Source of the DNA: a virus
Reading direction: 5' to 3' (one strand)
Virus record (IMG/VR): IMGVR_UViG_3300024518_002651
Coordinates: 1-25,489 of that record
DNA length: 25,489 nt
Under the pieces are notes generated by a model. It ran no database searches and was not told the origin of the DNA. It saw nothing but the letters and a program-made list of their open reading frames with translations. Made by a program: the position numbers and the translations under genes. Shown here piece after piece: positions 869 through 24,397 of the stretch; position 1 is the first letter of the stretch; each line of letters begins with the position of its first letter.

Positions 869-1396
869 CTAGTGGCCTCGATGGTCGACGGGAGGCGGGT
901 CGGCGTCGCATGGTGTCGGGGCGCCGGCGTAGATCGTGGCCGTGTTGACGCGGTGACTGTGGCGGCCGGTGTAGGGGACCTTGGGACAATTCCAGCCGTC
1001 GAAATGTGCGCGCATCGCGCCGGCTCGAGCGGGGGTGATGACGCGGCCTTGTGGGCCGTCGACGAGGATGCGGTCGACGACGGCGGCCTTGTTGCCGCCG
1101 GAGGCGACGCCGAGCTCGTTGGCGCATTGGCGGAGCTCGCCGATGGTGAGGGCGTTGAGGTCGGCGCGGTGGATTGCGCCGGCCTCCATGCGGGCGGTCA
1201 GACAGTAGGGGCAGAGGTTGGGCTCGGCGATGTCGATGACGCGGCGGCGGCCGGCGGCGGTGTCGAACCATGCCCAATAGCAACGCGTCCAGCGGGTCGC
1301 AGGGATGGTGAAATTGACGGCCTTACCTTGTCGGTGAGGGTTGACACATGTGGCCTCACCGGTGCCGTCGACTCCTAGACAGTCGGGTCCGCGCAT
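869..1396 (-). CDS. Cysteine-rich tail-module protein with a SAP-like helix-turn-helix segment
   Basis: A 175-residue protein starting at an ATG at 1396 (MRGPDCLGVDG), 7 bp after the upstream stop. It contains C6, C17, C39 and a CPYC pair at 62-65, which could coordinate a metal. Residues of about 79-113, including LTIGELRQCANELGVASG, resemble a SAP or LEM-type helix-extension-helix pattern (hydrophobic, x2, Leu, x3, Leu-Gly, Gly-x-Lys). SAP motifs usually bind DNA but are also seen in phage structural and terminase-linked proteins, so the role here is open. Its place between two virion-like genes argues for a tail-tip or assembly role. The ribosome site is weak (TAGGCCC), so coupling to the upstream gene is likely. 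Confidence 0.7.
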   Translation of the reverse strand: MRGPDCLGVDGTGEATCVNPHRQGKAVNFTIPATRWTRCYWAWFDTAAGRRRVIDIAEPNLCPYCLTARMEAGAIHRADLNALTIGELRQCANELGVASGGNKAAVVDRILVDGPQGRVITPARAGAMRAHFDGWNCPKVPYTGRHSHRVNTATIYAGAPTPCDADPPPVDHRGH

Positions 1397-1403
1397 GGCG
1401 GGC

Positions 1404-1835
1404 CTATGCGGTGACGTCGAGGAATTCGATGTCCCATGCCGACCAATCGACCTGGGAGCCGCTGTTCGTCGAGACGTTGGCGTTGGTCGTGCAATGCAAT
1501 AGGACGGTCGCGTCGTCGAGGTTGGTGTGGTTGCCGGTGCCGGTGGCGTTGGCCGAGGCGTCGGTCTGCGCGGCGAGGGTCGTCTTGCGGCCGGAGGCGT
1601 CGCCGTTCACGGCGGCGCCGAAGTCGCCGCCGCCGAGGCCGGCGGTGATGGTGGCCTCGGCGAGGAGGACGGCGGCGATGCCAGCGAAATTCGCTGGCTG
1701 TGCCGAGGTGAGGGTCTGACGGGTCGCGGTGGCGGTCTCAGCGAGGGCGGCGTCGAGGACGCTGTCGTCGGTGAATTTTGCCATGGCTCCGACGAGGCCG
1801 AGGATGACGAGGGTGACGAGGTGACGGGTACGCAT
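1404..1835 (-). CDS. Virion-associated protein, probable tail-tip or fibre-base component
   Basis: The ORF can start at 1835 (MRTRHLVTLVILGLVGA) or at 1784 (MAKFTDDSVLDAALAET). The 126-residue shorter form has the look of a common small phage structural family that begins MAKxTDxVLDAALN and ends with a motif like SAWDIEFLDVTA, which is present here. The longer form (143 aa) adds a positively charged hydrophobic stretch resembling a signal peptide or membrane helix. Only the 1835 start has a reasonably spaced ribosome site (GTGAGG); at 1784 a GGAG lies too close. The gene begins 8 bp after its neighbour's stop. The body is Thr, Ala and Asn rich and likely beta-structured. The family assignment is from pattern memory, not a search. 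Confidence 0.7.
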   Translation of the reverse strand: MRTRHLVTLVILGLVGAMAKFTDDSVLDAALAETATATRQTLTSAQPANFAGIAAVLLAEATITAGLGGGDFGAAVNGDASGRKTTLAAQTDASANATGTGNHTNLDDATVLLHCTTNANVSTNSGSQVDWSAWDIEFLDVTA

Positions 1836-1843
1836 GGCGGGCC

Positions 1844-2299
1844 TCACTTCTTGGCCTTGGCCGCGGGGTGGAACGCCGGCGTGAGCTCGTTGGTGTCGGG
1901 AACGTCGACGAGCGAGCGGCGCCATGCTCGCCGCTCGGCGGCGAGGCGGGCCTCGTCGGCGGCGTTGCCGTGGGCGGCCGGCGCGAGGACGGTGAACTCG
2001 TAGACGGTCTCGGTGCCGTCCTGGTCGATCTCGAACCGGTGAACGCCGACCTGCTTGTAGCCGCGCCGGGTGCGGATGCCGAGGCGGGCGACGATGGCGG
2101 GTTGACCGGGTCGAGCGGCCGAGGCGGGGATCGGGGCGCATGGCTCGCAGGTGACCTCGAGGAGCTCGCGGGTGCCGTCGGGGCGGACGTGATGCACGAC
2201 GGCGCCGGGGGTGCCGGTGTCGGGTACGGCGAATTGGGTCTCGTCGCCGAGGTAGCAGAGAAACCGGTTGCTCCTCGGGATCGTGGCGGCGGTGGGCAT
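1844..2299 (-). CDS. Unknown tail-module protein preceded by the duplicated 58-bp leader
   Basis: This 151-residue protein starts at an ATG at 2299 (MPTAATIPRSNRFLCYLG) behind a strong AAGGAG site 7 nt upstream. It holds two Cys in CEPC, a basic Arg-rich C-terminal third and a Lys/Ala tail (PAAKAKK). I recognise no family. Its leader is almost the same as that of the major tail protein gene, which suggests it is translated strongly and is a structural component. It sits among distal-tail genes, so a baseplate or tail-tip role is the simplest reading. Confidence 0.7.
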   Translation of the reverse strand: MPTAATIPRSNRFLCYLGDETQFAVPDTGTPGAVVHHVRPDGTRELLEVTCEPCAPIPASAARPGQPAIVARLGIRTRRGYKQVGVHRFEIDQDGTETVYEFTVLAPAAHGNAADEARLAAERRAWRRSLVDVPDTNELTPAFHPAAKAKK

Positions 2300-2351
2300 G
2301 GTGGCGCTCCTTGCTCGGGGGTCTCGGCCATGGCGGCGGCCGGGTTGGTCG
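2294..2351 (-). repeat. Duplicated 58-bp leader with ribosome site, copy 1
   Basis: These 58 bases match 6998-7055 exactly. They cover the start codon, the AAGGAG ribosome site and upstream sequence with a short overlapping ATG (frame MAETPEQGAPP on the minus strand). The identity stops abruptly at 2352. The proteins that follow differ after the first two residues (MP), so the conserved part is the leader, not a gene duplication. It occupies part of the 162-bp gap between the flanking genes; nothing else recognisable is in that gap. Confidence 0.85.
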
Positions 2352-2461
2352 CCATCATGGCACGCGTAGCGCCCAGAACCGATGGATAGGCCGCTGTGTC
2401 GCCGTCTACGCCGCGAACCGGTGCGGGCGGCCTCCTCGTGCCGGCGGTGAGGTCGCCGGTG

Positions 2462-3115
2462 TTAGAGCGTGAACCCGAACGCGGCGGCGGCGGCGTCGGT
2501 GTTGCCGGAGCCGAACGCGGGGGCGGTGACGACGATGGCGGTGTTGGCGGCCGAGGCCGGGATGGGCGCCGGGAACGTGAGCTCGAGCGGGGTGATGGCG
2601 GTGGTGACGCCGGCGGGGATGACGACGGGGAGGGTGATGGTGCCGTCGATGACGCCGGCGATGGTGACGTCGACGACGCTGGCGGCGGTCGCGCCGGCGC
2701 CGGTGATGATGAGGCCGGTGATGTAGGTGGTGACGCCGGCGCCGCCGGCGGCGAGGGTGGCGACGGCGGCCGCGTCCGAGACGACGCCGGACGCGTCGGT
2801 CGTCGGTGTCGCGCCGGATGGGTAGCCGGCGACGCTGTCGTCGAGGACGCGGAGCCGGCCGACCGAGTCAACCGAGAGTGATGCGTAGTCGCCGTCGGTG
2901 CCGGGGCCGGCGGCGGTGTCGCGGCGAACGGCGAGCGCCATGATGCCGCGGTCGGTGGCGCCGGCGACGGCGTCGACGGTGCGGGCGAGGAGCTCGAGGA
3001 CGGCGTTGCGCGCCCAGAGGAGCCAGCGGGTCGTGCCGTCGCCGTCGTCGGCCCAGACGGCGGAGGTGCGTTTGCCGGCGTTGTCGGTGTGTAGTGCTTG
3101 GCTCTGTTCGGCCAT
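2462..3115 (-). CDS. Virion protein of the tail-tip region
   Basis: A 217-residue protein starting at 3115 (MAEQSQALHTDNAGKR) behind a perfect AAGGAGG site. The N-terminal half includes IMALAVRRDTAAG and GDYASLSVDSVGRLRV, a pattern common in phage structural proteins that decorate capsids or tail tips. The C-terminal half is Ala, Val, Thr and Gly rich with regular alternation of hydrophobic residues, consistent with a beta-sandwich. No catalytic motif is seen. It lies 11 bp after the distal tail gene, in the same transcription unit. The exact role is not known. Confidence 0.8.
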   Translation of the reverse strand: MAEQSQALHTDNAGKRTSAVWADDGDGTTRWLLWARNAVLELLARTVDAVAGATDRGIMALAVRRDTAAGPGTDGDYASLSVDSVGRLRVLDDSVAGYPSGATPTTDASGVVSDAAAVATLAAGGAGVTTYITGLIITGAGATAASVVDVTIAGVIDGTITLPVVIPAGVTTAITPLELTFPAPIPASAANTAIVVTAPAFGSGNTDAAAAAFGFTL

Positions 3116-3126
3116 CGGTGGCCTCC

Positions 3127-3933
3127 TTATCGGTACTTGCGGCGCCAGACGATGTCGATGTCGACGCTAGTGGCGGTGCCGGTCCATGAGAGCTCCCAGG
3201 TGTTCGCGCCGGCGACGAGGAGCGGGAACGTGCCAGACACGTCGGCCATGTCGACGTCGGCCTCGTCGAACGCGCCGACGAGGTTGACGTCCTCGTTTTC
3301 GCTTTGGAGGACGACGTCGCCGATGGCGTTGACGGTGAGCGGGTCGCCGTCGTTGAGGACGGTGCCGGCCGCCCAGGTGAGCGCGTCGCCGTTCATGGTG
3401 AACGTAAACCCGGTGACGGTGCCGCCTCGAGCGGTGACGGTGACGACGGGCTCGGCGGTGACCTCGTCGGCGGCGACGAACGAATCGCTGTCGGGGTTGC
3501 TGGTCGCGGTGATGGCCTCGGAGGTCGCCGACACCGCGCACGCGTACGGGCCGACCAGGAACGGGACGATGATGTCGCCGGCTTGGCGTATCCATTCGTT
3601 CGTGGCGGCGGCGTCGTCGAGGATGGCGTCGTGGTAGCGGTCGGCCTCGTCGTCGACGATGAGCTGCGAGGTGGTGCCGGCCTCGGCCCAGGCGGCGAGG
3701 TCGCGGACGGCGCTACGGCGGGCGGTGATGCTCGCCGATGCGATGTGGATGACGAGCTCGAGGCGGCGGTCGCCGGGCTCCTCGTCGAACGTCCAACCGC
3801 CGGCGCGGCCGGGGACTCGGACGCGTTGGTGGCGGGGCCGGCCGACGAGCTGACGGTTGACGTCGAGGATGGCGGCGTCGGGGACGGCGGTGGTGAGGCT
3901 GGTGCCGTTGAGGGTGGCGTCGGTGAGGGTCAT
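3127..3933 (-). CDS. Distal tail protein (Dit-like, siphovirus tail component)
   Basis: The 268-residue frame starts at 3933 (MTLTDATLNGTSL), where the ATGA overlaps the tape measure stop. Gene order directly after the tape measure is where the distal tail protein is found in siphoviruses. The N-terminal part carries an Arg-rich stretch followed by GGWTFDEEPGDRRLEL, then a helix with AVRDLAAWAEAG, resembling the N-terminal ring domain of Dit proteins. The C-terminal half is a beta-rich domain ending in WELSWTGTATSVDIDIVWRR, like the galectin-fold tail component family. The protein joins the tail tube to the tip. Assignment rests on position plus fold-like pattern. Confidence 0.75.
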   Translation of the reverse strand: MTLTDATLNGTSLTTAVPDAAILDVNRQLVGRPRHQRVRVPGRAGGWTFDEEPGDRRLELVIHIASASITARRSAVRDLAAWAEAGTTSQLIVDDEADRYHDAILDDAAATNEWIRQAGDIIVPFLVGPYACAVSATSEAITATSNPDSDSFVAADEVTAEPVVTVTARGGTVTGFTFTMNGDALTWAAGTVLNDGDPLTVNAIGDVVLQSENEDVNLVGAFDEADVDMADVSGTFPLLVAGANTWELSWTGTATSVDIDIVWRRKYR

Positions 3934-7055: not shown

Positions 7056-7181
7056 ACATCGTAGGCACGAGGCCGGCCACGATGGGCGGATCGGCCGCTC
7101 TGTGGCGCTCTCCGCTGCGAACGGTCGCCGGCGGTCGTGTCATGGCGGACGAGCTGCTCGAGGCTGTAGCCGGCCGACGGG

Positions 7182-7328
7182 GCGCCGCGAATCGCGATCG
7201 CGAAACCCGTTTTCGCGAACACGATTTCGGGCGCCGCGAATCGCGATCGCGAAACCCGTTTTCGCGAACACGATTTCGGGCGCCGCGAATCGCGATCGCG
7301 AAACCCGTTTTCGCGAACACGATTTCGG
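7182..7328 (-). repeat. Hairpin repeat array A: three 49-bp units
   Basis: Units lie at 7182-7230, 7231-7279 and 7280-7328 and are identical to one another. Each has two palindromes on the plus strand, TCGCGATCGCGA and TTCGCGAA, that belong to a larger 37-nt imperfect hairpin with a 16-bp stem, one T·T mismatch and loop ACGGG on the coding strand. The array begins 9 bp after the tail terminator stop and ends 178 bp before the major tail start. All three copies carry the GAACACG variant. No U-tract follows, so a simple intrinsic terminator is not indicated. Confidence 0.95.
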
Positions 7329-9102: not shown

Positions 9103-9200
9103 CGCCCGCGAATCGTGATCGCGAAACCCGTTTTCGCGAACACGATTTCGGGGGCCGCGAATCGCGATCGCGAAACCCGTTTTCGCGAACACGATGTCGG
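9103..9200 (-). repeat. Hairpin repeat array B: two 49-bp units
   Basis: Units lie at 9103-9151 and 9152-9200. The first reads AATCGTGATCGCG where most copies read AATCGCGATCGCG; this change creates a U-A pair opposite the U of the GAACACG arm, so the stem is kept. The second has GATGTCGG instead of GATTTCGG at its edge. It directly adjoins the 56-bp hairpin pair at 9201-9304, and both together fill most of the 285-bp gap between capsid and connector genes. Confidence 0.95.
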
Positions 9201-9304
9201 GGCGGACGCGGAGCGGCCGCCGGCGATGCAGACGCCCGGCGGCCGCTCGATTTCGGGGCGGACGCGGAGCGGCCGCCGGCGATGCAGACGCCCGGCGGCC
9301 GCTC
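9201..9304 (-). repeat. Two 56-bp repeats, each with a perfect 13-bp-stem hairpin
   Basis: Each copy contains GAGCGGCCGCCGG, a 12-nt loop CGATGCAGACGC and the exact reverse complement CCGGCGGCCGCTC. Hairpins lie at 9211-9248 and 9267-9304, spaced by 56 bp. They begin 36 bp after the major capsid stop. The linker between them ends in GATTTCGG, the same tail as the 49-bp unit, which suggests one element inserted next to or within the other. The stems are very stable but no U-tract follows, so transcript protection or Rho-type effects are more likely than classic termination. Confidence 0.9.
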
Positions 9305-11110: not shown

Positions 11111-11306
11111 ACCTCGCGAATCGCGATCGCGAAACCCGTTTTCGCGAACACGATTTCAGGGGCCGCGAATCGCGATCGCGAAACCCGTTTTCGCGAACGC
11201 GATTTCGGGGGCCGCGAATCGCGATCGCGAAACCCGTTTTCGCGAACACGATTTCGGGCGCCGCGAATCGCGATCGCGAAACCCGTTTTCGCGAACGCGA
11301 TTTCAG
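11111..11306 (-). repeat. Hairpin repeat array C: four 49-bp units
   Basis: Units lie at 11111-11159, 11160-11208, 11209-11257 and 11258-11306. The arm variants alternate GAACACG, GAACGCG, GAACACG, GAACGCG, which points to growth by duplication of a 98-bp pair. The last three bases of the upstream gene, its TGA stop at 11303-11305, lie inside the edge of the fourth unit. The array ends 126 bp before the scaffold start. Confidence 0.95.
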
Positions 11307-13776: not shown

Positions 13777-14024
13777 GACGCCGGCGCCGCGAATCGTGTT
13801 CGCGAAACCCGTTTTCGCGAACGCGATTTCGGGGGCCGCGAATCGCGATCGCGAAACCCGTTTTCGCGAACGCGATTTCGGGGGCCGCGAATCGCGATCG
13901 CGAAACCCGTTTTCGCGAACGCGATTTCGAGGAGCTCGCCGGCCGCTCTAGACCGGGTCAGGGTCGTCGGGGTCGCCGGTGTCGCTAGTGGCGAGTGTCC
14001 GGCGGCCGGCGAGCTCGAGGTCAT
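13773..14024 (-). CDS. Possible 83-residue protein encoded mostly by hairpin repeats
   Basis: The ORF starts at 14024 with an ATGA overlapping the portal stop and ends at 13773 with a TGA inside the ATGA that starts the MuF-like gene. About 30 ordinary residues (MTSSSPAAGHSPLATPAT) are followed by three repeat units read in three successive frames, giving FAKTGFAIAIRG, NRVRENGFRDRDSR and KSRSRKRVSRTRFA. The product would be strongly basic at its C-terminus. Double coupling suggests ribosomes may cross the array, but this geometry can arise by chance because the repeat is open in all frames. Whether the peptide is functional is unknown. Confidence 0.4.
   Translation of the reverse strand: MTSSSPAAGHSPLATPATPTTLTRSRAAGELLEIAFAKTGFAIAIRGPRNRVRENGFRDRDSRPPKSRSRKRVSRTRFAAPAS
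13784..13930 (-). repeat. Hairpin repeat array D: three 49-bp units
   Basis: Units lie at 13784-13832, 13833-13881 and 13882-13930, all with the GAACGCG variant. The first has GTGTTCGCG where others have GCGATCGCG, which repairs the usual T·T mismatch in the stem and puts a C·A (or G·U on the other strand) at the neighbouring variable pair. The array ends 7 bp before the MuF-like start codon and begins 90 bp after the portal stop. Confidence 0.95.
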
Positions 14025-15493: not shown

Positions 15494-16144
15494 TCATTGT
15501 GGGCGGTTGCGGATGCCGTCGGCGAGGTCCTCGCCGGCGTTGTCGATCGGGCGGTGTTCGATCGTGGCCGGTAGGCCGGAGGTGTTGCGGCCGTGATGGT
15601 GCCAGAGCCAGGTGACCTCGTCGTCGTTGGCGGTGCCGCCGATGCGCGCCATGGCGTGGAACATCGGGAAGTCTTGAACGTCGAACGCGCCGGTGCCGCT
15701 GGCGTCGGCCTGGTAGCCGCCGGTCTCGCGCATGGCGGCGAGGACGACGTCGGTGCGGACCAGGAACGTGATCGGGACGGTGTGCGGCGCCTCGAGGTCG
15801 TAGGGGCGGCCTCGGAATTGTGGGATGGGGTCGGTGCCGCCGATGACGTCGAACCATGCCCAGACGAGACCGGCGCCGCTCTCGCCGGCGACGTCGAGGA
15901 GGTGCTCGAGGTGGTGGGGGAGGAGCTCGTCGTCGTCGTCGAGAAACGCGAGCCAGTCGGGCGAGGTGGCGGCGGCGGCGTAGATGCCGCGGTTGCGGGT
16001 CGCCCATGCGCCGGCGCCGGCGTGATCGTTGACGATGGTGATGCCGTCGGCGGGGTGTGTCTGCTCGGCGACCGAGGCGACCGCGCGGCCGAGCATGCGC
16101 GAGCGGCGCGGGATGGTCGGGATGACGACGTTGACGGAGCTCAT
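15494..16144 (-). CDS. GT-A fold (GT2-like) glycosyltransferase
   Basis: A 216-residue protein starting at 16144 (MSSVNVVIPTIPRRS), where ATGA overlaps the epimerase stop. The N-terminal VVIPTIPRR strand, SVAEQTHPADGITIVND and the AFLDDDDELLPHHLEHLL segment (DxD-type metal and nucleotide-sugar site at about 69-72) define a GT2 family enzyme. The later FDVQDFPMFHAMARIGG contains an Asp that may be the catalytic base. It would transfer a sugar from a nucleotide donor. An internal-looking upstream ATG at 16159 is less likely given the ATGA link. Acceptor unknown; the neighbouring epimerase may make the donor sugar. Confidence 0.88.
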   Translation of the reverse strand: MSSVNVVIPTIPRRSRMLGRAVASVAEQTHPADGITIVNDHAGAGAWATRNRGIYAAAATSPDWLAFLDDDDELLPHHLEHLLDVAGESGAGLVWAWFDVIGGTDPIPQFRGRPYDLEAPHTVPITFLVRTDVVLAAMRETGGYQADASGTGAFDVQDFPMFHAMARIGGTANDDEVTWLWHHHGRNTSGLPATIEHRPIDNAGEDLADGIRNRPQ

Positions 16145-17139
16145 GCCATCGCCTCCCATCGGGCGCGCTCGGAGAGGATGGCGCGGGCGATGCCGTCCTC
16201 GAGGGGGACGGTGAGCTCGTAGAGGCGGCGGAGCTCGTCGGTCGAGCCGACGCGCCAGCGGGCGCCGACGGGCTTGTCGAGGTCGTGCTCGAGGACGGGG
16301 GTGTAGCCGGCGGCGGAGCACACCATGGCGGCGAGCTCGTTGAAGGTGACCGGGCGGCCGGTGCAGATGTTGAGCGGGCCGTCGAGGCCGACCTCGGCGG
16401 CGGCGAGGGTGGCGCCGACGATGTCGTCGACGTGGACGAAGTCGCGCGCCTGGTCGCCGTCGCCCCATACGGCGAACGGTGCGACGCCGGGCTCGCCGTT
16501 GCCGGCGCCGAGGAGGGCGCGCTCGACGAACGCGCCGAACGGGTAGTCGGTGCTCTGATCGGAGCCGTAGCCGGAGAACGGGCGGAGGACGGTGACGGGA
16601 ACGCCGTCGGCGCGGACCTCGCCGGCCATGCGCTCGCCGACGAGCTTGGTGTAGCCGTAGGTGGCGTCGGGGGCGAACACGATGTCGGCGGCGGGGTCGA
16701 GGTGGCGCTCCTCGAGGCGGAGCTCGGTGCGGCCGTCCTGCCAGGCGAGCGGGTAGGCGGCGGACGAGCTGTAGTAGATGACGCGGCCGGGCCGGGTGCG
16801 GAGCGCCCATCGCCAGAGGGCGGCGTCGAGCTCGAGGTTGTAGGCGCCGACGTGCGCTGGTGTGCGCTCGATGCCGAGGCGGCCGCCGATACGGGCGGCG
16901 CAATGGACGGCGAGGTCGACGCGGCCGAGGTCGATGCGGTCGTCGGCGAGGACCAGGGCGTCGAGCTCGTGCCAGCTCGAGCCGTCGGCCGGCGTGCCCT
17001 CGTGCTCGATCATGTGAGGACCTCGTCGTCGCGCGATGTCGATGGCGGTGACCTCGTAGCTACGGCGGCGGAGGGCGGCGGTGATGTGGCGGCCGATGAA
17101 ACCGGCGGCGCCGGTGACGAGGGCGGTGCGGTAGGTCAT
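16141..17139 (-). CDS. NAD-dependent nucleotide-sugar epimerase or dehydratase (extended SDR)
   Basis: A 332-residue protein starting at 17139 (MTYRTALVTGAAGFIG). It has the GxxGxxG cofactor motif at 10-16 (GAAGFIG), an LAVHCAA strand, the catalytic YxxxK at Y161-K165 (YGYTK) with nearby Ser at 124-126 (YYSSS), and the substrate-side motifs VLRPFSGYG and DFVHVDDIVGA. These define the extended short-chain dehydrogenase family that converts UDP-, GDP- or dTDP-sugars. Substrate cannot be told. Start is fused to the methyltransferase stop by ATGA. Residues 43-48 (MIEHEG) are encoded inside a 37-bp repeat that also occurs 787 bp upstream in the reading direction. Confidence 0.92.
   Translation of the reverse strand: MTYRTALVTGAAGFIGRHITAALRRRSYEVTAIDIARRRGPHMIEHEGTPADGSSWHELDALVLADDRIDLGRVDLAVHCAARIGGRLGIERTPAHVGAYNLELDAALWRWALRTRPGRVIYYSSSAAYPLAWQDGRTELRLEERHLDPAADIVFAPDATYGYTKLVGERMAGEVRADGVPVTVLRPFSGYGSDQSTDYPFGAFVERALLGAGNGEPGVAPFAVWGDGDQARDFVHVDDIVGATLAAAEVGLDGPLNICTGRPVTFNELAAMVCSAAGYTPVLEHDLDKPVGARWRVGSTDELRRLYELTVPLEDGIARAILSERARWEAMA
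16995..17031. repeat. 37-bp direct repeat, copy 1
   Basis: Exact match to 17782-17818 at an offset of 787 bp. This copy is inside the epimerase gene, in the frame RRRGPHMIEHEG. The two copies bracket the methyltransferase gene at 17136-17771 plus the first part of the epimerase gene. Both contain ATGATCGAGCACGAGGGC on the minus strand. Confidence 0.9.
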
Positions 17140-17771
17140 GGTGTGTGCTCCTTGATGGCGGTGACGATGACGGTGTTGTCGAGCTCGTCGACGGTGATGG
17201 TGAGCCAGCCGGCGCCGCGGACGGCGGCGGCGAACGAGCCGTCGGGCCATGCCCAGAGGTGGCCCTCAGAATGGCCGACGGCGGTCTCGCCTCGAGGTAC
17301 GGACGCGACGAGGCCGATGACGGCCGGGTCGCCGGCGAGCTCGGCGAGGACCTCGACGGGGTCGATGAGGTGCTCGAGGACCTCGAGGAGGGTGACGACG
17401 TAGCGGTCGCCGGCGCCGGCGGCGGGCGGTCGGGCGCCGTCGACGCCGGTGACGAGGACGTCGATGAGGTCGCGGTTGAACACGGCGACGCCGCGGTCGC
17501 CGGCGCCGGCGACGTTGGCCGGCGTGAAGTCGTAGCCGTAGAGGACGACGCCGGCGGTGACGGTGGGCTCGACGAGCTCAAGGAAACCGCCGTCGCCGGC
17601 GCCGATGTCGACGAGGGTGTCGGCGCCGGTGTACTCGAGGAGGGTGGTGGCGCGGTCGGCGGCGAGTTCGAGGCGGGGCCGGTGGACGGGGTCCTCGAGG
17701 TGGCGGGCTCGAGCTCGGCCGGCGTGCCATTCGCGGGTCGACCATTCGGCGGGGCCGGTGGTGCGGGTCAT
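17136..17771 (-). CDS. Class I SAM-dependent methyltransferase, second of two
   Basis: A 211-residue protein starting at 17771 (MTRTTGPAEWSTREWHA). Motif I is LVDIGAGDGGFLE at about 53-65; motif II-like YGYDFTPANV follows at 79-88; TLLEVLEHLIDPVEVLAE at about 128-144 is the post-III segment common in small-molecule and sugar methyltransferases. The ASVPRG and HLWAWPDGSF segments fit this group. Both ends have ATGA overlaps. Substrate likely a sugar or metabolite given the glycosyltransferases next to it, but this is inferred. It is bracketed by the 37-bp repeat, which suggests it was gained or moved as a unit. Confidence 0.85.
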   Translation of the reverse strand: MTRTTGPAEWSTREWHAGRARARHLEDPVHRPRLELAADRATTLLEYTGADTLVDIGAGDGGFLELVEPTVTAGVVLYGYDFTPANVAGAGDRGVAVFNRDLIDVLVTGVDGARPPAAGAGDRYVVTLLEVLEHLIDPVEVLAELAGDPAVIGLVASVPRGETAVGHSEGHLWAWPDGSFAAAVRGAGWLTITVDELDNTVIVTAIKEHTP

Positions 17772-17800
17772 GCCGCGACCATGCCCTCGTGCTCGATCAT
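17768..17800 (-). CDS. Ten-residue coupled mini-ORF between two methyltransferases
   Basis: Reads MIEHEGMVAA. Its ATGA at 17797-17800 overlaps the stop of the first methyltransferase, and its TGA at 17768 lies in the ATGA start of the second. The first part is encoded by the 37-bp repeat shared with the epimerase. It could be a relay that carries ribosomes from one gene to the next, a remnant left by recombination, or chance. No function can be given to the peptide. Confidence 0.35.
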   Translation of the reverse strand: MIEHEGMVAA

Positions 17801-17818
17801 GTGAGGACCTCGTCGTCG
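17782..17818. repeat. 37-bp direct repeat, copy 2
   Basis: Exact match to 16995-17031. This copy forms the last codons of the first methyltransferase (DDEVLT then stop) and the start of the mini-ORF, a different reading frame from copy 1. Confidence 0.9.
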
Positions 17819-18483
17819 TTGGGGCCGCCGACGAGGAGCTCGAGGATGCGGGCGGCGAGGGGCTCGAGGATGCGGTCGACCATGGGCTCGGGGCCGACGG
17901 TGGCGGTGTGAATCTGGCATCGGAACGGGTGCGGCCAGTCGGCGACGTCGTAGTCGAGCTCGATGTAGTCGCGGGGCGCCCAGCCGGCGAGGTCGAGCAT
18001 GCCGCGCACGGCGTCGGCGTCCCATCGCCAGACGTGCTCGGGGTTGATGCCGGCGGGCTCGGCGAGGGGTGTTGAGAGGACGAGGCCGGTGCCGGCGCGG
18101 CGGGCGGCGCGGAGGAGCTCGAGGGGGTCGTCGACGTGCTCGAGTATCTCGCCGAGGATGACGACGTCGGCGTCCTGGCCGTCGAGCTCGGCGAGGAGCT
18201 CGAGGGCCGGCGTGCCGGGATGTGTGACCGGGGCGTCGGGTGCGAGGTCGCCGGTGACGAGGCCGCCGGCGGCGACGTTCGTGGCGATCTGAAACGCGGC
18301 GACGCGGTTGCCGGCGGCGGGGTCGACGACGAGACCGGGGTTGGGGAACCGGGAGCGGGCGAGGTCGACGGTGAGGCGGACGCGGAGCCGGTGCTCGGCC
18401 CATCGGTCGGCGTCGTTGTGGTGGGCGTAGAGCTCGGCGAGCTCGTCGGCGGTCGGGTTGGGTCGGAGGCGTTCGATGAGCAT
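17797..18483 (-). CDS. Class I SAM-dependent methyltransferase, first of two
   Basis: A 228-residue protein starting at 18483 (MLIERLRPNPTADELAEL), 4 bp after the previous TAA. Motif I is VVDPAAGNRVAAFQIA at about 52-67, and VILGEILEHVDDPLELLRA at about 108-126 is the post-III helix entry. Then LVLSTPLAEPAGINPEHV resembles the methyltransferase-23 group, where the Asn-Pro-Glu-His segment lines the active site. The role is probably methylation of a sugar or small molecule in the glycan block. It shares general class but little visible sequence with the second enzyme, so the two do not look like a recent duplication. Confidence 0.82.
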   Translation of the reverse strand: MLIERLRPNPTADELAELYAHHNDADRWAEHRLRVRLTVDLARSRFPNPGLVVDPAAGNRVAAFQIATNVAAGGLVTGDLAPDAPVTHPGTPALELLAELDGQDADVVILGEILEHVDDPLELLRAARRAGTGLVLSTPLAEPAGINPEHVWRWDADAVRGMLDLAGWAPRDYIELDYDVADWPHPFRCQIHTATVGPEPMVDRILEPLAARILELLVGGPNDDEVLT

Positions 18484-18487
18484 GGGC

Positions 18488-19030
18488 TTAGACCTCGCCG
18501 TCGCCGGGGTCGTCGCCGATGAGCTGCTCGGCGCCGGCGATGACGTCGTCGATGGCTAGCGCGAGCTGCTCGGCCGCCGCGCCGCCGGCGTTCTGGGCGG
18601 CGGTCGTCCAGAGGCCATGGCGGCGGAGGATGGCGGCGAACTCCTCGAAATCGTGCGGCCTGATCTTGAGGACGTGCTCGCCGGTGTCCTCGTCGCGGGT
18701 CGCTCGGCAATGCATGAGCTCGTGGTCGACGAGGGCGCGGCGTTTGTCGTCGTCGAGGACCTGCCAGATGGTCTCGGGGACCTCGATGACGAACAGGGGC
18801 CGCGGGGACTCGGTGACGTTGCCGGCGTGGCGCTTGAGGTCGCCGAGGACGGCGCCCATGCCTCCGACGCGGCGAGCGGAGCCGAGGACGATGCGGCCGC
18901 CATGGGTCGCCGGCTTGTCGCGGAACAGGTACTCGATACGGACGCCGCGGAGGTGGGCGTGGTCGGGTTCGTTGGCGACGAGGTCGTCGCCGATCTTGGC
19001 GACGTCGGCGGCTTTGCGGTAGGCGGTCAT
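18488..19030 (-). CDS. Putative zinc metallopeptidase of the phage metallopeptidase type
   Basis: A 180-residue protein starting at 19030 (MTAYRKAADVAKIGDD) by ATGA overlap. It carries a HEXXH zinc motif at 103-107 (HELMH), preceded by a helix (DDDKRRALVD) and followed by RPHDFEEFAAILRRHG, where His126 and Glu129 or Glu130 could complete the site. An N-terminal strand IEYLFRDKP and FVIEVPETIW fit a small protein family seen in phages and mobile elements with the motif order strand, HEXXH, HDFEEF. Enzymatic activity is inferred only. Its place inside a glycosylation block is curious. Confidence 0.75.
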   Translation of the reverse strand: MTAYRKAADVAKIGDDLVANEPDHAHLRGVRIEYLFRDKPATHGGRIVLGSARRVGGMGAVLGDLKRHAGNVTESPRPLFVIEVPETIWQVLDDDKRRALVDHELMHCRATRDEDTGEHVLKIRPHDFEEFAAILRRHGLWTTAAQNAGGAAAEQLALAIDDVIAGAEQLIGDDPGDGEV

Positions 19031-19857
19031 GACGGGCCTCCTTGGCCTGGCTGGGTGACGAGCTGCTCGAGGCGGCGGAGCTCGGCCAACATGACCGGCT
19101 CGAGGGCTTGCATGGCGGCGGGGTGGAGCTCGGCGAGGTAGGTACGGAACCGGGCCTCGTCGGCGGCGTAGAGCTCGGGGTCGTTGACCTCGACGTAGCC
19201 GGCGTCGAGCTTGGCGGTGCCGGCGGTCGGGTGTAGGTGCTCGATGACGACGTCGTCGAGATAGGTGAGGGTGCCGAGCTCTCGGCCGAGGCGGAGCCAG
19301 TAGTCGTCGAGATAGAGGTGAACCATGCCGGGCGGGACGTAGTAGCCGAGGGCGTCGATGATGCGGGCGTCGATGCTGACGGCGGTGGGGAGCTGGGCGC
19401 CGCGGACGAGGTCGTTGCCGTAGACGACGGCGAACGGTCGCCGGCGGTGAGCGTTGGCGACGCGCTCATCCCATGCGCTCGAGCGGGGCCGGTGGTCGTC
19501 GCCCATGAACCCGACGCCGATGCGGCCGTCGGTGGCGAACAACGGGGCGACCTCGTTGAGGGTGCCGCCGAGGCGGAGGCGGGGGCCGACGAGGAGCGAG
19601 GCGTATTCGGGGAGGGCGTCGCCGGAGGGGCCGACGACGTCAACGTAGCCGTCGAGGGCGGGGTCGTCGTCGTCGACGATGATGACGAGCTCGGCCGCCG
19701 GCGCGAGCTCGGACGGGTAGGCGGTCTGCGTCCAGGCGGCGAGGAGCTCGACGATGTTGCCGGGCCGGCCGCGGGTCGGGACGAGGTAGACGAGCGGCGC
19801 CTCGAGCTCGGCGGCGAGCTCGGCGGCGTCGAGGCGGAACCGGTCGAGGGTCGTCAT
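19027..19857 (-). CDS. GT-A fold glycosyltransferase
   Basis: A 276-residue protein starting at 19857 (MTTLDRFRLDAAELAAEL) by ATGA overlap. The core contains PLVYLVPTRGRPGNIVELL (donor-binding entry), LVIIVDDDDPAL at about 58-68 (metal-binding acidic cluster), FMGDDHRP at about 118-124 and YLDDYWLRLG at about 182-191. This pattern is of phage-type GT-A enzymes that use nucleotide sugars. The acceptor is not known. The C-terminal 70 residues are helical and could bind a partner. Confidence 0.8.
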   Translation of the reverse strand: MTTLDRFRLDAAELAAELEAPLVYLVPTRGRPGNIVELLAAWTQTAYPSELAPAAELVIIVDDDDPALDGYVDVVGPSGDALPEYASLLVGPRLRLGGTLNEVAPLFATDGRIGVGFMGDDHRPRSSAWDERVANAHRRRPFAVVYGNDLVRGAQLPTAVSIDARIIDALGYYVPPGMVHLYLDDYWLRLGRELGTLTYLDDVVIEHLHPTAGTAKLDAGYVEVNDPELYAADEARFRTYLAELHPAAMQALEPVMLAELRRLEQLVTQPGQGGPS

Positions 19858-20255
19858 GAGCTCGCGACCTCCTCGCCGGGCGACGGCGTCGAGGCGGGCG
19901 GGAGCTCGTCGAGGCGGTGCAGGACGCCGGAGCCGGAACACTCCTCGCAGGTGACGAGGGTGCCGGGCTGGCCGCCGTCGACGACGCGGCGGCCGGGCTG
20001 GTTCGCGATGACGAGCTCGAGGTCGGCGAGGAGCTTGCCGACGACGCCGGTGATGAGCTCGTCGTAGTCATCCCATCGAACCGGGACCGAGCGAACGAGG
20101 TCGGGCGGTCGCTGGGCGGTGGCGAGCTCGAGGAGCTTGACGACCTGCTCGTCGAGCGGCCGGTCGATGCGCGGGTCGCGGGCGAGGTGGACGAAACCGC
20201 CGGCGGCGGCGACGGCGCGCTCGAGCTCACCGATGTCGGTGCGGGTGCGGGTCAT
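19854..20255 (-). CDS. Small protein with a DnaJ-like CxxCxGxG element
   Basis: A 133-residue protein starting at 20255 (MTRTRTDIGELERAVAAA) by ATGA overlap, with AAGGAG just upstream inside the previous gene. The body is helical (DELITGVVGKLLADLELV). Near the C-terminus is VTCEECSGSGVLHRL, one copy of the CxxCxGxG knuckle known from DnaJ zinc fingers, where several copies normally occur. A single copy would need a partner to bind zinc. No family is recognised. It sits between two glycosyltransferases. Confidence 0.7.
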   Translation of the reverse strand: MTRTRTDIGELERAVAAAGGFVHLARDPRIDRPLDEQVVKLLELATAQRPPDLVRSVPVRWDDYDELITGVVGKLLADLELVIANQPGRRVVDGGQPGTLVTCEECSGSGVLHRLDELPPASTPSPGEEVASS

Positions 20256-21418
20256 TGGTCTGTTCTCCTTGTGCTGTTGTCGAGGGCTTGGCGGTAGGCG
20301 GCGAGGTGCTCGTCGACGTGGTCCTCGACGAGGAGGCCGCGGGCGGTCTCGCGGCCGGCGGCGGCGAGGGTGGCGCGGTGGTCGTCGTCGCCGACGAGGC
20401 GGTCGAGGTGGCGGAGCCAGTCGCGGGGCTTGGCGGCGATGACGCCGGCGCCGCGCCGCTCGAGCTCGCAATATTCGCCGGTCGGTGACGCGATGAACGG
20501 AACGCCGAGCGCGGCCCATTCGAGGCCTTTGAGCCAGCTCTTGGCCTCGTTGAAGGTGGAGAGCTCGAGCGGGACGATGCCGACGTCGAGGAGGGCCATG
20601 CCGCGCGGGTACTGCGTGAGGAGCTCGAGCCAGCCGCGGGTGTGGGCGAGCGGGACGTCGCGGAGGTCGAGGCCGGCGGCGACGCGGGTGTCGTGCTCAC
20701 CAATGACGTGCATGGGGAGCCGGTGCTTGCGGAGGACGTTGCCGACGGCGCCGCGGGTGACCTGTAGGTCGGCGGGGTGCGTGTTGACCGAACCGGACCA
20801 GCCGACCTTGACGGCGGCGTCGATCGAGCCGGGCTCGAGGCGGGGGCGGACGTACAGGTATCGGCGCGGGACGTAGTTGCGGACGACGGCGACGCGGCCA
20901 TGGCGGCCGTATCGGGCGGCGAGCGCCGGCGTTGACACGATGACGAGGTCGGCGAGCTCGGCGGCGGCGGCGAGGTGTTCCCAGGAGCGGCCGCCGTTGC
21001 GGAACTCGTAGGCCGGGTGAACGGTGCGGTGCGCGATGTTGCGGCGGTGAATGGTCTCGAAATCGTCGTCGGTCTCGACGGCGACGGCGAGGCCTCGAGC
21101 CTGTAGGAGCCGGATGACCTCGACGAGCTGGCGGGTGAGCGGCCGTTGCATGATGACGAGGTCGGCGTCGGGGACGGCGTTGAGGCCGACGATGGCGGCG
21201 GTGCCGTCGGCGAGGTAGCGGGCGAGCATGTTGTCATTGGCCGGCGGCGGGACATCGGCGCGACATCGGAGCTGTGTGTCGAACTCGGAGCCGGCGCGCT
21301 CGGGGAGGACGAGGTTGACCTCGAGGTCGGCGCTCTGCATGTCGAGCGCCTCGAGGGGCCAGATGAGCCGGTAGTGACCGCAACCGCCGGCGTCGGCCGC
21401 GATCGCGTGAACCTTCAT
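20252..21418 (-). CDS. GT-B fold (GT4-like) glycosyltransferase
   Basis: A 388-residue protein starting at 21418 (MKVHAIAADAGGCGHYR) by ATGA overlap. It has an N-terminal Rossmann-type entry with GGCGHYRLIWPLEAL, an AVETDDDFETIH segment at about 113-124, VGWSGSVNTHPADL at about 205-218, and the GT4-type donor region VPLELSTFNEAKSWLKGLEW then ALGVPFIASPTGEY at about 282-316, with the conserved Glu in FNEAK. This pattern matches retaining GT-B enzymes. Such genes are seen in actinophages and can glycosylate virion proteins. Substrate inferred, not shown. Confidence 0.87.
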   Translation of the reverse strand: MKVHAIAADAGGCGHYRLIWPLEALDMQSADLEVNLVLPERAGSEFDTQLRCRADVPPPANDNMLARYLADGTAAIVGLNAVPDADLVIMQRPLTRQLVEVIRLLQARGLAVAVETDDDFETIHRRNIAHRTVHPAYEFRNGGRSWEHLAAAAELADLVIVSTPALAARYGRHGRVAVVRNYVPRRYLYVRPRLEPGSIDAAVKVGWSGSVNTHPADLQVTRGAVGNVLRKHRLPMHVIGEHDTRVAAGLDLRDVPLAHTRGWLELLTQYPRGMALLDVGIVPLELSTFNEAKSWLKGLEWAALGVPFIASPTGEYCELERRGAGVIAAKPRDWLRHLDRLVGDDDHRATLAAAGRETARGLLVEDHVDEHLAAYRQALDNSTRRTDQ

Positions 21419-21837
21419 TCGGCGAGCTCGGCGGCGGTGCGCGGGGTCCGCTCGGCCCTCGTCGGCCGGCGGGCGTGGTCGTCGGCGACGTGGCCGACGA
21501 GGTCGGTGAGGAGGTCGTAGGTGGCCTCGCACGAGTCGCAGCGGAGGACGGAGGCGGAGGGCTCCTCGGCGGCCGGCGACGGCGGCGGGCCGTTCTTGTG
21601 CGCTCGGGTCTTGTGCATCGTTCGGCCTTGCTTGGTGTCGAAACCGCGCGGGCAGAGGTCGCAGTAGAACCGGCCGTCGGTCGGGACGGGGCCGAGGTCG
21701 TCGGCCGGCGGCGGGTCGGGGTCGAGCCGCTCGAGGTCGATGAGCTCGGCGCGTGCTCGGCGGAGCCGGCCGAGCTGCTCCTCGAGGTCGTCGAGGGCGT
21801 CGTCGATGGCCTCGACGATGTCGGTGATATCTGGCAT
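21415..21837 (-). CDS. Two-C2H2 zinc-finger protein with N-terminal coiled coil
   Basis: A 140-residue protein starting at 21837 (MPDITDIVEAIDDALDD) with a GGAGGA site. Residues 1-38 form an acidic coiled coil. Finger 1 is C59-x2-C62-x12-H75-x4-H80, and finger 2 is C100-x2-C103-x12-H116-x4-H121. Both fit the classic C2H2 pattern, including the aromatic and Leu positions of the core in part (FYCDLC, GFDTKQGRTMHK). C2H2 fingers are rare in bacteria and phages, where they may bind DNA or mediate protein contacts. It lies 33 bp after the large terminase and could aid packaging or act on the host; this is speculation. Confidence 0.8.
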   Translation of the reverse strand: MPDITDIVEAIDDALDDLEEQLGRLRRARAELIDLERLDPDPPPADDLGPVPTDGRFYCDLCPRGFDTKQGRTMHKTRAHKNGPPPSPAAEEPSASVLRCDSCEATYDLLTDLVGHVADDHARRPTRAERTPRTAAELAE

Positions 21838-21870: not shown

Positions 21871-23748
21871 CTAGAACGCGGCGACGCGCTTGGCCTTTTT
21901 CGGGGCGGGCCGGAGCATCGCTCTCGAGAGGGCGTTGACGGTGGCGGCGATGCCGTCGATGCGTTTGGCGGACTTGTGGCGGTCGGGCTTGGCCGGCTTG
22001 AGGTTGCCGCCGGGGTCGGAGAGGACGGCGACGTTGTCGGCCTCCCATCGGAGGATGGGGTTGCCGCCGTGGACGAGGAGCGGCCGGCGTTTCGTCGATC
22101 CCATCACGAGGCGCTCGAGCTCTTTGCATGGCGCCGAGAGCGAGGCGTAGCCCTGGCGGAGCGGGACCATGGTCACGCCGGCGTTCTGCATTTGTTGGAC
22201 GGTCTCGGAGGCGTTCCATGGGTCGAACGCGACCTCGGAGGCGGTGAGGTCGACGCCGAGGAGCTCGGCCTCGGCCTCGATGTCGGAGCGGACGGTCTCG
22301 TAGTCGACGACGTTGCCCTCGGTGGCGCGGAGCCAGCCGTCGGCGACCCATTCGGCGAGCGGGGCGTTGAGCTTGAGCTCGAGCTCGTCGAGGCGCTCCT
22401 CGGGGAGCCAGTGCATGACGTGGAGGTAGTAGCCGGCGGAGCGGCGGACGAGCTCGAGGCCGTCGGCGTGCTCGAGGGCGTCGAGGGCGCGTTCGGCCTC
22501 GTCGTCGGCGAGGGCCTCGTCGTCGGCGAGGGTGAGGCCGGGCCGGTCGGCGGCGGGGACGGGCGTCATGAACGCATAGGCGGTGAAGTCTGTGGAGCTC
22601 GAGAGGTCGAGGCCGCCGGCGGTGGTACGGCCTCGGAACGCGACCTCGAGGTCGAGGAGGGCGTCGCCGTGGTCCCATCGGTCGAGGGGGAGCCATCGGT
22701 CGAGCTGCTTGGTGCGACGGTTGAGATGAAACCGGAGGTAGTTGTTGAGCTCCGACGGTGACTGGCGGGCTTTGCGGGCCTCGCCGACGAGGTAGTCCTC
22801 GTGAACGGTGTGGCCGATGCCGGGGTTGGCGCGGCGGATGGTGTCGAGCGCGAACGGTTCGGCGCCTTTCGGTGCGCCGAACACGACGCCGCGGAACGTC
22901 GGGTCGATGACGGTGCCCTTGACGATGCCCTCGAGGTAGGCGCGCTTGGTGGCGTAGGGGGTGCCGTCGTCGCCGGCGTCGGCGGTGGTGATGAACAACA
23001 CGAGCGGTTGCTCGCGGGCGCCGGTGCCCTTCTCGAGGGCGTCGATGAGGTCGATGGTCTTGTGGACGTGGACCTCGTCGATGATGGCGGCGTGCAGATT
23101 GAGGCCTTGCTGGCGGGCGCCGTCGGCGGAGATGGCCTTGAACCAGCCGGCGCCGCCGGCGGTCTCGATGATGTTGGTGCGGATGTCGTCGCCGAACCGG
23201 CGCGCCCAGTACGGCGACGCCGCGGCCATCGCCCTCGAGGGGCGGAACACGAGGCCGGCTTGCGTGCGGTCGGCGGCGGCGGCGGCGACCTGCGGGCCGG
23301 CCTCGCCGTCGTCGCCGAACATGTAGAGCGCGACGCCGGACGCGAGCGTCGACTTGCCGTTCTTGCGGGGGACGTCGTCCCAGAGGGTGCGGATGATGCG
23401 GCGGCCGTTGGCATGGGTCCAACCGAACGCCGGCGCGATGACGTAGCGGACCTGTGTGTCGAGGAGCTTGAGCGGCTTGTCGGCCCATTCTCCGGTGATC
23501 TGGCGGAGCCGGCCGAGCGAGGCGAGGACGCGGTCGACGCGATGCCAGCGGAACTCGAGCGGCGCCGGCGGCGGGGTCTCGAGGAGCGGCTCGTAGGGCC
23601 ATTCGGTGTCGATGATGACGCCGAGGGCGATGCGCGAGGCGACGTAGCGCTCGAGCTCGGCGATGGCGGCGCCGGCGGACGCTAGCCGCGCCGTGTAGGG
23701 GTCCTCGGTGCCGGTCGGCGACCATGCCGGCGTGCGACGTCTACCCAT
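21871..23748 (-). CDS. terL: Terminase large subunit
   Basis: A 625-residue packaging motor and headful or cos nuclease. The start at 23748 (MGRRRTPAWSPTGTEDP) has GGAG 5 nt upstream and overlaps the methyltransferase stop by 8 bp. The ATPase carries a Walker A motif at about 127-134 (PRKNGKST), Walker B at 221-226 (AIIDEV) and coupling motif C at 252-256 (FITTA). The nuclease domain has Asp381 (GGLDLSSSTDF), Asp509 (VAFDPWNA) and Asp598 (RIDGIAA). This is the Terminase_1-type found in many actinophages. A longer frame upstream of 23748 is antisense to or out of frame with its neighbour and is not the start. Confidence 0.96.
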   Translation of the reverse strand: MGRRRTPAWSPTGTEDPYTARLASAGAAIAELERYVASRIALGVIIDTEWPYEPLLETPPPAPLEFRWHRVDRVLASLGRLRQITGEWADKPLKLLDTQVRYVIAPAFGWTHANGRRIIRTLWDDVPRKNGKSTLASGVALYMFGDDGEAGPQVAAAAADRTQAGLVFRPSRAMAAASPYWARRFGDDIRTNIIETAGGAGWFKAISADGARQQGLNLHAAIIDEVHVHKTIDLIDALEKGTGAREQPLVLFITTADAGDDGTPYATKRAYLEGIVKGTVIDPTFRGVVFGAPKGAEPFALDTIRRANPGIGHTVHEDYLVGEARKARQSPSELNNYLRFHLNRRTKQLDRWLPLDRWDHGDALLDLEVAFRGRTTAGGLDLSSSTDFTAYAFMTPVPAADRPGLTLADDEALADDEAERALDALEHADGLELVRRSAGYYLHVMHWLPEERLDELELKLNAPLAEWVADGWLRATEGNVVDYETVRSDIEAEAELLGVDLTASEVAFDPWNASETVQQMQNAGVTMVPLRQGYASLSAPCKELERLVMGSTKRRPLLVHGGNPILRWEADNVAVLSDPGGNLKPAKPDRHKSAKRIDGIAATVNALSRAMLRPAPKKAKRVAAF

Positions 23749-24397
23749 TGAGCTCCAACTCGGCGAGGAGCTGCTCACCGATGAATTCTGTGTACGCGGG
23801 CGGGATTGACTCCGAGAGCTCGCGGAGTGTGAGCGGCCAGTCGATGCCCATGGCGGCCTTTTGCTCCTTGAGCGGGATGCGATAGACGCCGATCTCGCAA
23901 GTAAATCGGCGGTTTGAGCGGTTGCTTGCCGGCGGCCATCGGCGGACATTCCAGACGGCGTGATGGCACGGCGGGGCAAGAAAAGCGACATTGGACTCGA
24001 ATAGACGATGACGGCGGACGTCGAGGCCGAACGAGGAGCCGCATAGCTGGATTGGGGCGAGGAGTGGCGCGCCGGCGACGTTCTCGATGACGTAGGGCCG
24101 GTCGAGAGCACCGAGGAGGTTGCGGGTGGGCTCGAGGAGGTCCTCGTAGCGGTCCTCGAGGCCGTCGACGGCGCGGCCGTAGGCGGTGAAATGTTGGCAG
24201 GGTGGCGAGGCGTGGACGGCGGCGACGCGTTGCCAGTCGAGCGGCGGGTCGAGGGCGTCGGCCTGGACAAACGCGTAGGGATAATTGGGTTGCGGTTCGA
24301 TGTCGACGCCGATGATGTCGAAACCGGCGCGGTAGTAGCCGGCGGCGGCGCCGCCGGCGCCACAGAACAAATCGACGAGGAGCGGGCGCTTGTCCAT
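23741..24397 (-). CDS. C5-cytosine DNA methyltransferase
   Basis: A 218-residue enzyme starting at 24397 (MDKRPLLVDLFCGAGG). Motif I is DLFCGAGG at 9-16; the catalytic Pro-Cys is in SPPCQHF at 64-70 (Cys67); motif VI is ENV at 105-107; a short motif VIII-like RRHR lies at 128-131; and motif X is IPPAYTEFIGEQLL near the end. It lacks a large target-recognition domain, so it belongs to the compact phage type. It may protect phage DNA from restriction. Parts at about 23860-24050 have visibly lower GC than the neighbours, which suggests a separate origin. It lies between the two terminase genes. Confidence 0.92.
   Translation of the reverse strand: MDKRPLLVDLFCGAGGAAAGYYRAGFDIIGVDIEPQPNYPYAFVQADALDPPLDWQRVAAVHASPPCQHFTAYGRAVDGLEDRYEDLLEPTRNLLGALDRPYVIENVAGAPLLAPIQLCGSSFGLDVRRHRLFESNVAFLAPPCHHAVWNVRRWPPASNRSNRRFTCEIGVYRIPLKEQKAAMGIDWPLTLRELSESIPPAYTEFIGEQLLAELELNG

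Follow-up and report, generated by a model that had tools for sequence, protein, structure and literature searches.

A mobile glycan-enzyme cassette between the terminase and portal genes of an uncultured phage, with a possible role in virion glycosylation

Glycosylation of virion proteins is known in few phages. It has been reported that the capsid and tail-tube C-termini of mycobacteriophages bear glycans (Freeman 2023, as cited in PMC12619734). In the mycobacteriophage Corndog, an O-methyltransferase and three glycosyltransferases are encoded among the head genes, and the authors proposed that the capsid is modified with methyl groups and glycans (PMC4351075). The cassette analysed here resembles these genes of the cluster O phages (Corndog gp35-38, Firecracker gp33-36) in combining methyltransferase and three glycosyltransferase-like genes within the head block. 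However, the cluster O genes sit between portal and protease and have no epimerase annotated among them, whereas our cassette lies between the large terminase subunit (TerL) gene and the portal gene and includes an epimerase. Profile comparison using hhalign, made with Firecracker as a close relative of Corndog, did not establish homology to the enzymes of this group. Our second GT-A glycosyltransferase (GTA2) matched gp35 with a probability of 80 and the other five comparisons stayed below 2, so that one glycosyltransferase is weakly alike and the methyltransferase is not. Therefore, the likeness to Corndog is one of layout, and common descent is not demonstrated.

Among cultured phages, relatives of the glycosyltransferases are present in the Arthrobacter Atuin group (Atuin, Mimi and Racecar), in the Streptomyces phages Zuko and KimJongPhill and in larger Streptomyces phages. 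Atuin has homologs of all three glycosyltransferases of the cassette (GTB, GTA1 and GTA2; 37-43%) within 5 kb, while in Zuko a homolog of GTB lies close upstream of the terminase and a glycosyltransferase-methyltransferase-glycosyltransferase trio is located elsewhere. In contrast to the cassette, the Atuin group and Zuko carry no member of the family of the second methyltransferase (MT2) and no close epimerase, and the companion genes are different ones, namely UDP-glucose dehydrogenase and nucleotidyltransferase. Three different queries found no MT2 relative in the cultured-phage collection, the epimerases found there were remote, and the full cassette set was not found in this collection. 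A limited search of the open-access literature did not return any description of the cassette. As far as we found, the combination of enzymes is thus new, while its function is probably of a known kind.

The window analysed is a viral contig of 25,489 bases from IMG/VR (IMGVR_UViG_3300024518_002651). The phage is of soil origin, and its hosts are probably actinomycetes. G+C content varies from 65 to 74% in sliding windows, and the clear genes are all on the minus strand. From high to low coordinates these are the small terminase (24931-24497), a C5-cytosine methyltransferase (24397-23741) placed between the small and large terminase genes, TerL (23748-21871; phrog_9, E 2.7e-126), the block of interest, the portal protein (15481-14021; PF05133, E 7e-27; phrog_104, E 2e-115), a large protein matching a head-maturation protease (13776-11512), a scaffold gene and the major capsid protein (10267-9341). 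Neck and tail genes, including those for the tape measure and a distal tail protein, follow the capsid gene towards low coordinates. The location between terminase and portal that had been claimed for the block is thus borne out. Between TerL and the block lies a gene (21837-21415) for a protein of 140 aa with a C2H2-like double zinc finger (zf-C2H2_4, E 2.3e-5, below cut-off), which shares a 4-base ATGA overlap with the first gene of the block.

The block extends exactly from the GTB start at 21418 to the GTA2 stop at 15494 and contains, in this order, GTB, a CxxCxGxG protein, GTA1, a HEXXH protein, MT1, MT2, the epimerase and GTA2. Family searches agree with the gene content given in the original prediction (one GT-B and two GT-A glycosyltransferases, a sugar epimerase, two methyltransferases, a HEXXH and a CxxCxGxG protein), and ATGA overlaps of 4 bases, described there as prevalent, are present at five of the seven internal junctions. 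GTB (21418-20252, 388 aa) is a GT-B glycosyltransferase matching phrog_7162 (E 3.7e-34) and, weakly, Glyco_trans_1. It is 54-55% identical to its syntenic relatives, and NxxKSxxKxxE is invariant in the alignment. The CxxCxGxG protein (20255-19854, 133 aa), an accessory member with the motif CEECSGSG in its translation, has no family match in Pfam, PHROGs or NCBIfam.

GTA1 (19857-19027, 276 aa), a GT-A glycosyltransferase belonging to the core of the cassette, matches phrog_14945 (E 1.8e-49) and nothing in Pfam. The AlphaFold model (pLDDT 92.5) shows a GT-A fold, for which Foldseek returns GT-A enzymes with probability 1.0, including the fucosyltransferase WrtF and SpsA. Alignment reveals a conserved D and the conserved motifs GDDH, YGND and EHxHP. 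On its predicted structure, GTA1 is a GT-A fold protein with an acidic metal/nucleotide motif. GTA2 (16144-15494, 216 aa) is a GT-A glycosyltransferase of GT2 type (PF00535, E 3.5e-12; phrog_14775, E 7e-30) and carries a DDDD motif in the alignment. Between the two lies the HEXXH protein (19030-18488, 180 aa), with the motif HELMH, which belongs to the PhageMetallopep family PF18894 (E 9e-31; 107 bits against a cut-off of 23.7). Two PHROG labels, 'transposase' for the metallopeptidase (phrog_513) and 'DNA methyltransferase' for GTA1 (phrog_2675), were not accepted as functions.

Both methyltransferases are class I SAM enzymes. MT1 (18483-17797, 228 aa) matches Methyltransf_23 below cut-off (E 1e-4), and its subfamily is kept at 38 loci. 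MT2 (17771-17136, 211 aa), also of the core, is above the cut-off for the same family (PF13489); the fold matches of its model (pLDDT 90.8) are SAM enzymes, among them dTDP-sugar C-methyltransferases. The third core protein (17139-16141, 332 aa) is an NAD-dependent epimerase/reductase of the extended SDR type (PF01370, E 8e-36) retaining TGxxGxxG and YxxxK. Thus, it has the family, the NAD motif and the catalytic Tyr/Lys of GDP-L-fucose synthase and related SDR epimerases (Fcl, MoeE5), and MoeE5 and GDP-fucose synthase are its likenesses in the PDB. GDP-L-fucose synthase is the best NCBIfam match as well, but was rejected as an identification at 72.5 bits against an equivalog cut-off of 500. 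The score is far under any equivalog cut-off, and a substrate can therefore not be assigned.

The core of GTA1, methyltransferase and epimerase recurs in about 100 viral contigs, plus prophages of Streptomyces and Actinomadura. Scanning viral contigs with GTA1 yielded 85 confirmed loci, of which 80 were kept and 73 were non-redundant. Among the 43 non-redundant loci with 4 kb on each side, the strand of GTA1 carried, within 5 kb of it, an epimerase in 30, a methyltransferase in 32, GTA2 in 25 and GTB in 12. An independent scan, made with the MT2 alignment and restricted to contigs not seen before, added 62 loci; GTA1 and the epimerase were each found within 3 kb in 49 of these. MT1 was counted in all 62, which we discounted as cross-matching between the two methyltransferase families. 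A scan of bacterial genomes gave seven loci, all in Actinomycetota (four Streptomyces, two Actinomadura and one Micromonospora), with portal-like genes nearby in five. A scan of viral contigs with GTB, whose peptide patterns were too specific, found no relative, and searching phage records with the DNA of the block gave no match.

Distances between phages, correlated over unequal sample sizes and with kinship not removed, agree among GTA1, epimerase, MT1 and GTA2 at r 0.64-0.77 (GTA1-epimerase 0.68; epimerase-GTA2 0.77). Agreement with GTA1 is weaker for GTB (r 0.42) and MT2 (r 0.27). With the capsid protein it is r 0.35 for GTA1 and r 0.16 for the epimerase, against r 0.85 between capsid and portal. 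The core genes therefore co-vary more with each other than with the capsid, which fits a module moving between phage lineages. Taken together, this is a real, conserved and mobile phage glycan cassette, and the claim of a coupled glycan operon linked to virion genes is upheld by many relatives.

Seven related contigs (L045-L051) have the cassette between TerL and portal in the same order, with roughly 32-69% protein identity. L047 begins inside the block, L047 and L048 are near-duplicates, as are L049-L051, and some of the seven have one methyltransferase instead of two. Two annotated phages whose portals rank among the nearest, Thermobifida phage P318 and Streptomyces phage Samy, have TerL and portal separated by 13 bp and no intervening gene. 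The cassette therefore gives the impression of having been inserted into a standard gene order. Such a site is tolerant and might simply have gathered unrelated morons, and the metallopeptidase, CxxCxGxG and zinc-finger genes do come and go. However, this explanation is already disfavoured and we regard it as very improbable, because the same genes travel together at different sites and co-vary; other phages keep them in the same order, which rules out chance association.

The metallopeptidase lies at the TerL-portal site in L046 alone among the seven contigs, whereas the CxxCxGxG and zinc-finger genes have no homolog in any of them. PF18894 is absent from 50 other cassette-bearing contigs, and in the unrelated Erwinia phage Gungnir39 a gene of this family directly precedes the terminase genes. 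We therefore treat all three as passengers. The PF18894 protein is a general phage metallopeptidase and not core, which leaves unsupported the suggestion in the original prediction that the protease-like gene makes for a richer decoration system, and the zinc-finger gene is probably outside the set.

An HK97 capsid gene (PF05065) is detectable in 20 of 50 contigs. The cassette is on its strand in 18 of them and within 4.2 kb of it in 11, where 5.0 would be expected at random (p 0.002, kinship not removed); in three contigs the distance is 39-81 kb. Three arrangements are seen. In many contigs the order is terminase-portal-protease-capsid-cassette, in a second group (L104, L116, L123 and the Streptomyces/Actinomadura prophages, among them L126 of Streptomyces sparsogenes and L128 and L129 of Actinomadura) the cassette is followed by TerL and portal, and in a third it comes after the tail genes. 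In the lineage to which the Streptomyces phage-plasmid pS1D4-14.2 belongs, terminase, portal, capsid and tape-measure genes are present, but the GTA1-methyltransferase-epimerase trio is tens of kilobases from the capsid gene. On pS1D4-14.2 itself, a plasmid of Streptomyces sp. S1D4-14, the cassette occupies positions 1259-3518 of the record. Thus, the glycosyltransferases are encoded with virion genes in the window, in L045-L051 and in those 11 of 20 contigs, and not in the pS1D4-14.2 lineage.

The C5-cytosine methyltransferase between the terminase genes of the window raises the main alternative, DNA hypermodification, in which the glycosyltransferases would glycosylate hydroxymethylated bases of the phage DNA and the methyltransferases would modify the resulting glycan, giving protection from restriction. 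Virus-encoded glycosyltransferases that hypermodify DNA provide a precedent (Pyle 2024, as cited in PMC12619734), and 5 of 50 contigs with the cassette also encode a TET/JBP dioxygenase. Like TET/JBP-type systems, the cassette has phage glycosyltransferases acting on a polymer with a C5-cytosine methyltransferase near by. It differs from them in that no dioxygenase is present in the 25 kb window or linked to the cassette: the distance between GTA1 and the TET genes is about 30 kb or greater, and four of these five seem to belong to a single lineage. Moreover, a C5-methyltransferase is missing from all four TET contigs that were tested, that of the window is without counterpart in close relatives, and among 23 larger records this enzyme is present in 7 and thymidylate synthase in 2. 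Such absences weigh little because the contigs, like the window of 25 kb, are fragments. On balance, DNA modification appears unlikely.

Modification of the host surface, by which the phage would alter a cell-wall or extracellular glycan and block superinfection, appears unlikely as well, marginally more so than the DNA reading. The glycosyltransferases and the epimerase resemble envelope-glycan enzymes, and Streptomyces, Actinomadura and Micromonospora harbour relatives as prophages or phage-plasmids, for which lysogenic conversion would pay. However, the GtrABC type of host glycan conversion employs a membrane flippase and a lipid-carrier glycosyltransferase, and neither was found here: no protein of the block has a strongly hydrophobic segment, and there is no membrane protein in the block or the cassette families. 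The position among virion genes in most lineages examined also speaks against it.

These same features, namely enzymes that look soluble, without a membrane partner and usually encoded with virion genes, lead us to favour glycosylation of a virion protein. It is somewhat probable that this mobile phage cassette provides cytosolic enzymes that build a methylated glycan on a virion protein and so decorate the particle. The epimerase/reductase would act on a nucleotide sugar made by the host, which may be a 4-keto-6-deoxy sugar, and turn it into a special donor. The earlier view was that the set is adequate for making a nucleotide sugar, attaching sugars and methylating them, but with a single epimerase the nucleotide sugar also needs a host precursor. 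Only some relatives have an RmlB-like dehydratase (NCBIfam, below cut-off; this replaced a Pfam assignment of one such gene as GDP-mannose dehydratase), which would fit a 6-deoxy sugar, an identity suggested by remote homology. GTA1 and GTA2, and also GTB, may then add two or three sugars in turn in the cytosol, presumably on the side chain of some head or tail protein, and MT1 and MT2 may methylate the sugar or sugars so that the glycan is capped or disguised. Co-expression with packaging and head genes would put the enzymes where new virion subunits fold. The identity of the sugar, the order of these steps and, above all, the acceptor are what we infer. A comparison of capsid and tail-tube C-termini showed no Ser/Thr-rich tail specific to cassette phages. 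We count four things against the virion reading: no acceptor was found, the pS1D4-14.2 lineage and three contigs have the cassette far from the capsid gene, the window encodes a C5-cytosine methyltransferase, and the sugar is identified through remote homology.

More tentatively, and at somewhat less than even confidence, we propose that actinomycete phages possess a virion-glycosylation system which is mobile, self-contained and widespread. At its core would be a GT-A family and a methyltransferase family, each of them distinct, together with a nucleotide-sugar epimerase dedicated to the system, and it may furnish capsid or tail proteins with an unusual, methylated sugar. Such a system would supply a context for many glycosyltransferases and methyltransferases whose specificity is unknown. 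The presence of the cassette in about a hundred uncultured phages as well as in prophages and phage-plasmids of culturable Streptomyces would make its role, be it protection, adsorption or evasion of defence, testable.

Four intergenic gaps of the window, situated amid the head, neck and tail genes, are occupied by tandem arrays of TTCGCGAAAACGGGTTTCGCGA, which is present in 12 exact copies arranged as 49-base units. The arrays are located at positions 7180-7328, 9106-9202, 11115-11306 and 13786-13929. Folding of a single array (13785-13935) reveals strong hairpins (z -4.7), and an IMG/VR search with a 21-base core of the repeat yielded no exact match. Two gene calls are affected by the arrays: the ORF at 14024-13773 is only apparent, being the repeats read through, and the start of the ORF at 9340-8444 is likewise a read-through. 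Another tandem repeat, with a 66-base unit, is present at the contig end (5-282) and encodes the repeated peptide VDVAHGSTLDAVTVSADADPAP; it is possible that this repeat sits within a virion protein.

A C5-cytosine DNA methyltransferase gene (23741-24397) is located between the small and large terminase genes, and none was seen in the close relatives. Directly past the large terminase gene, a small protein (21415-21837) contains two C2H2-like zinc fingers, which is unusual for a phage.

Four related contigs with the glycan-modification cassette (L132-L135) also possess TET/JBP dioxygenase genes. In L132 this gene is followed by one for a papain-like protease and, further on, by a lysin-like gene. 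The handles L221 and L225 refer to the linear Streptomyces plasmid pS1D4-14.2 (NZ_CP041606, 98.8 kb record), which bears the trio of glycosyltransferase, methyltransferase and epimerase. With its terminase, portal, capsid and tape measure genes, pS1D4-14.2 looks like a phage-plasmid.
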